A stretch of 64,000 nt of DNA from Taibaiella sp. (GTDB lineage: Bacteria > Bacteroidota > Bacteroidia > Chitinophagales > Chitinophagaceae): the NCBI GenBank assembly GCA_013815385.1, contig JACDGL010000002.1, positions 248,001 through 312,000 of the forward strand. Direction: 5' to 3'. The notes under the pieces are model-generated. The model did not search any database. It was not told the DNA's origin and worked only from the letters and a program-made list of their open reading frames with translations. Positions 59,820-64,000 of the stretch are shown here, one piece after another. Position 1 is the stretch's first letter; every line of letters starts with the position of its first letter. The position numbers were made by a program, and so were the translations under genes.

Positions 59820-60842
59820 ATGGATAAATCTAATGTGCGCCCTGCAAGTGAACTTAGCCCGCAGGAAAGGGAATATGAAAATACCATAAGGCCGCAGACC
59901 ATAGAAGAGTTTTCGGGTCAGCCGCAGCTTATTGATAACCTGCGCATATTCATAAAGGCTGCCAACCTGCGAGGCGAAGCGCTGGACCATGTATTGTTCC
60001 ATGGCCCGCCGGGATTGGGCAAGACCACACTATCGCGCATAGTAGCCAATGAGCTGGGCGTAAATATAAAAGAGACCAGTGGGCCGGTAATAGAAAAGCC
60101 AGGCGACCTGGCCGGGCTGCTAACCAGCCTTGAGGCAAGAGATGTACTGTTCATAGATGAGATACATAGACTGAGCACTGTGGTAGAGGAATACCTCTAT
60201 GCAGCTATGGAGGATTTTAAGATAGATATAATGATAGACTCAGGCCCTGCGGCACGGTCTGTACAATTAAGCCTGCACCCATTTACCCTGGTAGGCGCTA
60301 CCACACGGTCGGGATTGCTGACTGCCCCGTTGCTATCGCGTTTTGGCATAAAATCGCGGCTGGAATATTATAATGCGGATGTGCTGCAGCGTATAGTAAT
60401 GCGCTCTGCCACATTGCTGAATGTACGCACCACATCAGAAGCGGCTATGCAGATAGCCGCGCGCAGCCGGGGCACGCCACGTATAGCCAACGGCTTGCTG
60501 CGCCGCATGCGCGATTTTGCACAGGTGCTGGGCAATGGCGTGATAGACCTGGCCATAGTAGAGCACGGGCTACGTGCATTGAACGTGGATGAGCATGGGC
60601 TGGATGATATGGATAACAAAATACTGACAACATTAATAGATAAATTTAAAGGTGGCCCAACGGGACTGAACAACATAGCTACCGCCGTGGGTGAAGAAGC
60701 AGGAACGATAGAAGAAGTGTATGAGCCTTTTTTGATACAGGAGGGTTTTATAATGCGCACACCACGTGGGCGCGAGGCTACTGATAAAGCGTACGCGCAT
60801 CTAAACCGAAGCAGGAAGGGTGGTGATGGGAGTTTGTTTTAA
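59820..60842 (+). CDS. ruvB: Holliday junction branch-migration ATPase RuvB
   Basis: AAA+ motor that drives branch migration of Holliday junctions with RuvA. 340 residues, Walker [12 protein letters not shown] (62-71), Walker [11 protein letters not shown], sensor 1 GATTRSGLL and the C-terminal winged helix with RTPRGREAT. Full length. ruvA and ruvC are not adjacent, as is usual in Bacteroidota. Confidence 0.98.
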
Positions 60843-61519: not shown

Positions 61520-61682
61520 ACAATCTTTTCAACAAAGCTATAGTGCTACTGCGTGGCGGCATTTGATATATGTCAATAAATTGGTGGAAGAATTGAATTA
61601 CTGCGAAGTCATTGTGTTGTGTATAGGAAAACAGGAGAGGATCTTTTTTATTTACAAATCAGGAGATTTGCATCCGGTACGA

Positions 61683-61721
61683 CGTAGTGAGACACTACGC
61701 CGAGCGAGGACTATGTGAGGT
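61683..61721. repeat. Hairpin repeat, related to the NACHT-island border copy
   Basis: Perfect stem CGTAGTG / CACTACG (61683-61689, 61693-61699, loop AGA), continued by CTACGCCGAGCGAGGACTAT then GTGAGGTT (to 61721). The tail matches 9485-9511. It overlaps the 3' end of the HNH gene: the stop codon is inside the tail. Confidence 0.7.
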
Positions 61722-62622
61722 TGTCTTTAATAATTTTTTGCAGCAATTCTAAATTACTTGGATCATCCAATCTATGTATCATGCTATGACAATTGCTGCA
61801 TAATACCGCAAAATCAGTTTCAATATTGACTTGAACATTACCAAGATTTAAGGTGCTTATCGGTATTAGATGATGCGCTTCAATAAATTCTTTCCCAAGT
61901 GAACCATACATACTTGAGAATGTAAACTTGCAACCTTCACATTTATACCCCTTATGTTGTTTCACCTTATTTGCAATATTTGAATTGCGCTCAATCCTGA
62001 AATGAAGTCTGTACTGTTTCTTTTCTAATGCAGTCAGATTTTTTGTCTCATCTATTTGTGTGTCATTAAAGATTAATTCTTCGTACAAGTTGAGAAAACG
62101 TCTCACGTCCTGTATTAATTCAGTTGTTGTTGGCAAATTATCAGCTGGGTAATATTTGGCAATTATATTACCCGCTTCATAGAGTTTAGCGTTATTATTC
62201 CTACTCGCAAGATCAATTTCAGTTAAATCCTCATTATCGATCTCTATTTTAGCTCTATAATCTTGTGCAATTACCCTAAGAACATTTTTAGCATTCCTTT
62301 TATAATATTCTTTTACCCTTGTTACTCCTTGATTTAAGGATAGATAAACTCCAGTCATATCCTCCTTAAAAATAAGTACTGGATAATAGCCGGATTGAGC
62401 CGTGTCTGTAATGAGGCTATCAAGTATTGCAATCCAAGGACAACTTGCCCAGTTTCCTTTGCCAGGAGAGCCAACAACGAGATATCTGTTTCTATCTGGC
62501 AATATCTCCTCTAAAAGCCGCTGGTATTCGCCTCTTAATTTATTTGCCAACGGATTTCCGACAAATTTCTGTGTTTTTTGTGTGCTATAAGTTTCAAGAG
62601 GCTCTCTTAGTATTCTTTCCAT
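61711..62622 (-). CDS. DUF3578 (MrcB-like N-terminal) + HNH nuclease
   Basis: A 303-residue protein with two parts. Residues ~40-125 match the DUF3578/McrB-type N-terminal module: VGSPGKGNWASCPWIAIL, GYYPVLIF and VYLSLNQGVT. Residues ~225-285 form an HNH nuclease: zinc pairs Cys228/Cys231 and Cys275/Cys278, active-site His250-His251 in FIEAHHLIPIS, and His283. This fits a modification-dependent or type IV-like restriction nuclease. It starts 11 bp after the priA stop, same strand, and its stop lies in a repeat tail. AT-rich compared with priA, so probably acquired. Confidence 0.88.
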   Translation of the reverse strand: MERILREPLETYSTQKTQKFVGNPLANKLRGEYQRLLEEILPDRNRYLVVGSPGKGNWASCPWIAILDSLITDTAQSGYYPVLIFKEDMTGVYLSLNQGVTRVKEYYKRNAKNVLRVIAQDYRAKIEIDNEDLTEIDLASRNNNAKLYEAGNIIAKYYPADNLPTTTELIQDVRRFLNLYEELIFNDTQIDETKNLTALEKKQYRLHFRIERNSNIANKVKQHKGYKCEGCKFTFSSMYGSLGKEFIEAHHLIPISTLNLGNVQVNIETDFAVLCSNCHSMIHRLDDPSNLELLQKIIKDNLT

Positions 62623-62633
62623 ATTTTAGTAGT

Positions 62634-64000
62634 TTACCCCACCGGATCCACATCAAACAATACCTGTAATGAGGTGTTGCCGCGCTGGGCGGTGATGGTG
62701 GAACGTTGGGCTTTGAGGAAGGTTTTTACTTTGTCGAGGAGGCGGGTGTCGCGGGGGCATTTGATCCATACTTCCTGGATGTATTGGTTGCGCACGCGGG
62801 CTACCAGTGCGGGTACGGGGCCTTGTACTTGTATACCTTCTATAGTGTTGAGCGCCTGCGCCATCTGCGCTGCGGCGTGTATGGCCTTCGGCTCATCGCG
62901 GTGGCGGAATATTATTTTTATCAACCGTGTATAGGGCGGATAGGCAAACTGCTCACGGTATTTTATCTCTGTTTCGTAGAATGCTTTTACATCGTGTGCC
63001 TGCACCCAGTGTAGTACGGGGTGGGTAAGATTGTATGCTTGTATAATGACGCGGCCCGCACCATCCATACGACCGGCACGGCCACTCACCTGTTCCATCA
63101 ACTGAAAGGCTCGTTCATTTACGCGGAAGTCGGGGTAGCTAAGCAGGCTATCGGCGCTGAGTATGCCTACCAGCGCTACCTGTGCAAAGTCGAGCCCCTT
63201 TACTACCATCTGCGTGCCTACAAGTACATCTATCTTTTGCTTATCCAGTTGCTCTAATAACTCGCTCAGGTTTTTCTTGCCGCGCATGCTATCCACATCC
63301 ATGCGGGCTACCCGTGCTTTGGGAAACAGCTGCTGCACTTCTTCCTCTATCTTTTCGGTGCCGTAGCTTTTACTTACCAGCCGGTTGCCCCCGCAGGCAG
63401 GGCATATGGTAATGACCGGCGAGCGCAGGCCGCAGTAATGGCAGTGCATTTTATCGGTGCTCTTGTGGTAGGTGAGCGATACAGCGCAGTTCTTGCAGTG
63501 GGGCACCCAGCCACATGCAGTGCATAGCTGGAAGGGTGCATAGCCACGACGGTTCTGAAACAGGATGATCTGTTTCTTTTTCGTGAGCGTATCTTGCATG
63601 GCCTGCTGCAACTCGGGGGTGAGCAACTTTATATTTTGCTGCCGCATTGTCTCCAGCGACTTCGCATTCACGATCTCTATGGAGGGCATGTTGACGCCGA
63701 GGTAGCGTTCCCGTAGCGACACCTGCGCATACTTGCCCTGCGCGGCATTGAACAACGTTTCTACCGATGGTGTGGCAGAGCCGAGTATCACTTTTGCATT
63801 GTGCAGCGATGCCAGATATACCGCCGCATCGCGCGCGTGGAAGCGGGGTGCGGGGTCGCGCTGCTTGTAAGATACATCGTGCTCTTCGTCCACTATTATC
63901 AGGCCCACCTCGTTATATGGCAGCCACAATGCGGAGCGCGGGCCAGCTATTATCTTATACTTGCCCTGCTGCACCTTCTGCCATATCTCTACCCGCTCAT
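62634..64000 (-). CDS. priA: Primosomal protein N' (PriA helicase), C-terminal part; 5' end outside window
   Basis: Replication-restart helicase. The frame stays open to base 64000, reading ERVEIWQKVQQGKYKIIAGPRSALWLPY, so the N-terminal part lies beyond the window. Visible: DEXH-type VDEEHDVSYKQ, LGSATPSVETL, QNRRGYAPF, four-Cys zinc pairs (CTACGWVPHCKNC, CHYCG, CPAC), VGTQMVVKGLDF, and SGRAGR. C-terminus VLFDVDPVG is typical. About 455 residues are seen. Confidence 0.96.
   Translation of the reverse strand, partial: ERVEIWQKVQQGKYKIIAGPRSALWLPYNEVGLIIVDEEHDVSYKQRDPAPRFHARDAAVYLASLHNAKVILGSATPSVETLFNAAQGKYAQVSLRERYLGVNMPSIEIVNAKSLETMRQQNIKLLTPELQQAMQDTLTKKKQIILFQNRRGYAPFQLCTACGWVPHCKNCAVSLTYHKSTDKMHCHYCGLRSPVITICPACGGNRLVSKSYGTEKIEEEVQQLFPKARVARMDVDSMRGKKNLSELLEQLDKQKIDVLVGTQMVVKGLDFAQVALVGILSADSLLSYPDFRVNERAFQLMEQVSGRAGRMDGAGRVIIQAYNLTHPVLHWVQAHDVKAFYETEIKYREQFAYPPYTRLIKIIFRHRDEPKAIHAAAQMAQALNTIEGIQVQGPVPALVARVRNQYIQEVWIKCPRDTRLLDKVKTFLKAQRSTITAQRGNTSLQVLFDVDPVG

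Follow-up and report, generated by a model that had tools for sequence, protein, structure and literature searches.

What an McrB-type reader does when it is fused directly to a nuclease is the question raised by a single gene of Taibaiella sp. In known systems the McrB reader belongs to a machine powered by GTP. In the 64,000-nt stretch of DNA analyzed here (the window), one minus-strand open reading frame (61711..62622; 303 aa, ATG start) carries an MrcB_N modified-base reader domain (DUF3578, "ADAM"; residues 9–183, 62074..62598, minus strand) and an HNH nuclease domain (residues 228–284, 61771..61941, minus strand). The first-pass annotation had described this gene as a DUF3578-HNH fusion with no AAA+ partner in the visible part and had proposed a possible single-protein modification-dependent restriction system. 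The description was borne out: only MrcB_N (PF12102, 172.3 bits vs. a cut-off of 25) and HNH (PF01844, 23.2 bits vs. 21.4) scored above the Pfam cut-offs. As for the proposal, we consider it likely that the fusion is a predicted NTP-independent, single-chain type IV enzyme acting against modified cytosine. This reading fits the McrB fold of the reader, the conservation of the nuclease residues in all 45 sequences compared, the lack of a recurrent neighbor, and the depletion of C5-methyltransferases in carrier genomes.

The gene starts 11 nt past the stop codon of priA and on the same strand (priA, 62634..64000, running on past the window edge; 818 aa, PriA domains), so its position behind priA had been given correctly. 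The adjacency is meaningless, and priA lies outside the system. A priA-linked role was rejected: in all 19 testable relatives, those with at least 1.4 kb visible behind priA, the fusion gene was missing from that place (at two further loci, L153 and L166, the sequence stops within 251 nt). The GC content of the fusion gene was 35.0%, compared with 54.1% in the adjoining part of priA and 44.6% in the whole window. This was the only MrcB_N copy found in the window's genome (3.25 Mb, rated 100% complete; window at G000:C30:248001-312000). The full-length fusion was present in 2 of 294 genomes of the window's family and in 3 of 395 genomes of the phylum sample, 7 of which had any MrcB_N. Taken together, the patchy occurrence, the absence behind priA of relatives, and the low GC content suggest a recent horizontal arrival of the gene. 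Some relatives are in prophages: L072/L132 are next to a phage methyltransferase fragment and a portal gene, and L074/L133 are next to an integrase. The patchiness, the GC contrast, and these prophage settings are counted in favor of the single-chain restriction reading. Past priA, just outside the window (L002:9375-10586), the region upstream of priA holds an HTH_3 and HigB toxin pair and also a small ORF with a TIR domain; the neighborhood therefore has further accessory genes. A hairpin just 3′ of the fusion-gene stop codon (61680..61702, minus strand; 10-bp stem, 3-nt loop, no T-run; RNAfold, −18.0 kcal/mol for minus strand 61661–61716) is a possible transcript end.

A scan of genome contigs with the single sequence returned no relatives. 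Relatives were collected with a seven-sequence alignment, and 80 of the 103 genome-contig loci and 18 viral-contig loci were fetched. All 98 contained a reader ORF, and reader and HNH were in one ORF in 76 (64/80 genome-contig and 12/18 viral-contig loci). Because the same reader-HNH fusion recurs in other contigs, a chance ORF or an assembly artefact was rejected. Three of the 76 entries were short, two being split (L069 and L096) and one cut at a contig end (L134). The 76 loci, the window, two plasmid copies, and L049 gave 78 distinct rows, which the tree divided into two well-supported clades (A, 31 rows; B, 47 rows). Clade A has a longer linker and is found chiefly in Bacillota and phage contigs; clade B is compact and is found in Bacteroidota, Pseudomonadota, Cyanobacteriota, and others. 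The window sequence belongs to clade B and adjoins Pontibacter (68–70% identity).

Other MrcB_N proteins were also seen. Among 10 scanned that had no HNH-profile match, 7 carried NOV_C (NO VEIN C-terminal; L119, L122, L130, L141, L143, L146, and L149, several on viral contigs) and 1 carried HNH_2. In Pedobacter soli (L098:5977-7005), MrcB_N occurs with HNH_2, which is outside the reach of the HNH profile, and this protein is possibly an independent reader-HNH fusion. A 152-aa ORF of Planktosalinus lacus L097 (G649; L051:7836-8294) has the first two thirds of MrcB_N only and overlaps a large ORF; it is probably a remnant, and the surrounding ORFs, labeled by eye, resemble a type I restriction set. 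A protein of 991 aa (L131:3047-6019) has a central MrcB_N and no further Pfam domain at E ≤ 0.01.

By its MrcB_N score and its fold, the N-terminal domain falls in a family with known readers of modified bases. An AlphaFold2 model of the fusion (mean pLDDT 87.4, pTM 0.75) was built from an alignment of the 45 clade-B sequences, and the top match in the fold search was the DNA-binding domain of E. coli McrB (Z 10.7–11.6). The best McrB structure was 3ssd (Z 11.6, rmsd 3.4, 143 residues, 19% identity to the N-terminus), and the family sequence profile found EcoKMcrB through the reader part (E 8e-5). The McrB-type identity previously given to the N-terminal module was thus supported by both profile and fold. 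Residues W49, Y64, and L68 of McrB are presumably those that hold the flipped base. The first two correspond to W63 and Y80 here, both invariant in all 45 clade-B sequences. The L68 position (I84 here) was Leu in 40 sequences, Phe in 3, and Ile in 2, the window having Ile. The Y41 position (K55 here) was variable, mostly Lys, Gln, or Asn. PDB titles name McrB mutants of both Y41 and L68, and according to citing papers the DNA-reading domain of McrB flips the modified base.

The nuclease domain was equally conserved. Residues C228, C231, E248, H250, H251, D270, C275, N277, C278, H279, and H283 were invariant (45/45), and the zinc and His residues (C228, C231, C275, C278, H250, H251, and H283) are therefore all intact. 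The canonical Asn of the HNH motif aligns with an invariant Phe (F271); the TagI authors assign this Asn no catalytic role (PMC6212794). The family sequence profile found EcoKMcrA (6ghc, E 4.7e-6). Structural comparison of the C-terminus with Cap5, EcoKMcrA, and TagI gave Z values of 5.3, 4.9, and 4.6, respectively, which may mean merely a common arrangement. The best Foldseek E-value was 2.3e-3, and the viral-protein structure library gave no match at E ≤ 0.001. PADLOC matches were confined to the HNH part (ZorE2, 1.7e-6, the best; mREase_IV, 1.5e-4). HNH domains with other N-termini were also seen, and 1 of 10 scanned was EVE. Because of the fold and profile matches to EcoKMcrA and EcoKMcrB, the protein is predicted to be, in effect, an McrB reader joined to an McrA-like nuclease.

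The C-terminus was also matched by PHROGs HNH families. This match and the fusion's presence in viral-contig relatives would be expected if the protein were a selfish or phage HNH of homing or packaging type, with a reader-like domain no longer reading modified bases. We regard this reading as highly improbable. The invariance of the pocket residues W63 and Y80 argues against it. In the loci surveyed, the fusion was a free-standing gene at varied chromosomal sites with varied neighbors, and a fixed insertion target was not seen. The depletion of C5-methyltransferases in carriers, described below, would be unexpected for a homing enzyme.

The neighbors of the gene bear on the single-protein reading. 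McrC (PF10117) was not found in the window's genome, and ruvB (59820-60842), considered as an AAA+ partner, was rejected as a housekeeping gene. The first-pass annotation had called for a survey of homologous neighborhoods, with a constant separate partner as the outcome that would count against it. In clade B, ORFs longer than 900 aa were excluded, and 8 of the 157 neighbors were dropped (7 short ones and the L096 reader fragment), leaving 149 ORFs from 45 loci. No recurrent neighbor was found in a tally covering the 25 commonest of 191 families; the commonest had at most 4 members, and the four Zn_peptidase neighbors fit local synteny in Mucilaginibacter. PADLOC detected scattered defense genes, with no family occurring more than twice. 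The survey thus showed that the window's clade lacks an obligate partner.

The sister clade gave a somewhat different picture. In clade A, 6 of 111 neighbors were SLFN-g3/DUF2075 helicases and 6 of 111 were MazG-like, and both also occur beside the fusion on a Priestia and a Paenibacillus plasmid. MazG-like and SLFN-g3/DUF2075 genes flank the fusion in L100, L103, L104, L113, and the plasmids L044 and L045, with MutT in some; the clade-A fusion and its flanking genes look like a larger defense cassette. These helicases are what could be cited for a fusion that acts with a separate helicase or translocase encoded elsewhere, as McrB does with McrC. This seems very unlikely for the window's gene, given the ceiling of 4 members in 149 for any neighbor family in its own clade and the missing McrC.

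If the fusion cuts 5-methylcytosine DNA, it should not coexist with C5-methyltransferases, and the methyltransferases of 45 clade-B and 5 clade-A carrier genomes (of 64 carrier loci) were therefore counted. No C5-methyltransferase was found in the window's own genome, compared with 10 of 14 control genomes having one. Among Bacteroidota clade-B carriers, PF00145 was found in 1 of 24, the single match being a 22.5-bit fragment in L082. Among phylum controls it was found in 173 of 372 (173 of 375 before the carriers G000, G464, and G613 were removed). The difference was significant when relatedness was ignored (Fisher test, P = 1.1e-5), carriers and controls being unmatched for completeness and phylogeny. 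It persisted when L096, with its split reader, was left out (1/23, P = 2e-5), with named isolates only (0/16, P = 6e-5), with one carrier per genus (1/14, P = 0.002), and with the 8 isolate genera (0/8, P = 0.006). Within the window's family, PF00145 was present in 68 of 135 genomes, and the comparison of carriers with the rest was not significant (0/3 vs. 68/133, P = 0.12). N6-methyltransferases (N6_Mtase, PF02384) were as frequent in carriers (23/24) as in the phylum (339/375; P = 0.7), with some weak matches in both groups. Beyond Bacteroidota, single PF00145 matches were seen in 2 of the 16 clade-B carriers that are not cyanobacteria, and PF00145 was present in 2 of 5 clade-A carriers; neither group has a matched control. 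The evidence that Bacteroidota carriers are depleted of C5- but not N6-methyltransferases is good but not final, because the comparison ignores relatedness. The depletion is consistent with an enzyme that would turn on the host's own DNA in a cell producing 5-methylcytosine.

Cyanobacteria were the exception. The five cyanobacterial carriers group in a single clade, and four of them (L087, L088, L090, and L092) had many PF00145 matches, the counts being 7, 11, 12, and 14; the nuclease residues of these four are intact. In three of these four the McrB L68 position is Phe. The fit is imperfect: L092 has Leu and 12 matches, and L091 has Leu and none. The cyanobacterial members may read another mark, may read a context that is unmethylated in the host, or may be inactive. 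A bolder proposal takes MrcB_N-HNH as the equivalent of McrBC without a motor, with hosts that reveal its specificity: it would be a nuclease acting on 5-methylcytosine in general and keeping C5-methyltransferases out of the genome. The cyanobacterial branch, with Phe at the L68 position in three of the four exceptions, would have shifted to a different mark or to a narrow context and could thus live alongside 7–14 host C5-methyltransferases. We put this forward as speculative and probably wrong in at least some part.

These exceptions also bear on whether the enzyme as a whole reads a different mark (4mC, 6mA, or hypermodified phage bases), the C5 depletion being a by-product of lineage. Besides the many C5-methyltransferases tolerated by the cyanobacterial carriers, the Y41 position is unlike that of E. 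coli McrB, and the titles of 6gcf and 6gce describe MrcB_N structures with N4-methylcytosine and 5fC DNA. Against a different mark, the W49, Y64, and mostly the L68 positions of the pocket are retained; N6-methyltransferases are undepleted in the same genomes, which speaks against 6mA in common contexts. On balance, a mark other than 5-methylcytosine and its kin is unlikely. For the preferred reading, a single-chain enzyme against modified cytosine, we count as adverse the weak HNH fold match, the unconserved Y41 position, the Phe in place of the motif Asn, the cyanobacterial exceptions, the PF00145 matches in two other clade-B carriers and two clade-A carriers, the comparison's lack of correction for phylogeny, and the family-only P of 0.12.

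Under this preferred reading, the N-terminal McrB-type domain would recognize modified cytosine, that is, 5mC and probably 5hmC. The reader would scan DNA and most likely flip the base into its pocket as E. coli McrB does, and the tethered HNH would most likely behave like those of EcoKMcrA and TagI, dimerizing and nicking or cutting near the modified site with no NTP. What we say of the exact modification and the sequence context of the target is likewise prediction. The role would be that of a guard against phage or plasmid DNA containing modified cytosine, and the enzyme would be tolerable only in hosts without C5 cytosine methylation in the contexts read.

Among known systems, the fusion shares the reader family and fold with EcoKMcrBC (3ssc/3ssd), including the W49 and Y64 positions, but it has no AAA+ GTPase on the reader, no McrC is found in its genome, and its nuclease is in cis and of HNH type, whereas that of McrBC is PD-(D/E)XK. 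With EcoKMcrA (NEco-HNH, 6ghc) it shares a single chain, an N-terminal modified-cytosine reader, and a C-terminal Cys4-HNH; it differs in the reader, which is NEco in EcoKMcrA, and in having Phe where EcoKMcrA has the HNH Asn. We know of no relation between the NEco reader and MrcB_N. VcaM4I (EVE-HNH) and TagI (SRA-HNH) combine a base-flipping reader with HNH, are NTP-independent, and have no methyltransferase partner (PMC7897488, PMC6212794), a plan predicted for the fusion as well; TagI acts as a dimer (PMC6212794). Their readers are of the PUA superfamily (EVE and SRA), unlike MrcB_N. The phosphorothioate-dependent SBD-HNH enzymes (EcoWI and SprMcrA) share the reader-HNH architecture and the logic of host avoidance, dnd clusters reportedly lying near fewer than 3.6% of SBD-HNH homologs (PMC7461809), but they read backbone sulfur rather than a modified cytosine. 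The fusion agrees with the single-chain reader-HNH enzymes in that neither an NTPase domain, nor a C5-methyltransferase in its genome, nor a recurrent neighbor was found. The reader-HNH plan is already known with EVE, SRA, NEco, and SBD readers (PMC7897488, PMC6212794, PMC12707154, PMC7461809). No description of an MrcB_N-HNH fusion was found in the parts accessible of the literature searched for McrB, DUF3578, and HNH; within that literature, what is new is the McrB reader in an otherwise known single-chain plan.

A natural reader-HNH fusion of this kind would show that the McrB reader can steer cleavage without a motor, and the few single-chain enzymes used for mapping 5mC and 5hmC would gain one with a further type of reader. 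The host-methyltransferase test is a cheap genomic predictor of the mark read by an uncharacterized modification-dependent nuclease. In the cyanobacterial exceptions, nature offers an experiment on how that specificity changes.
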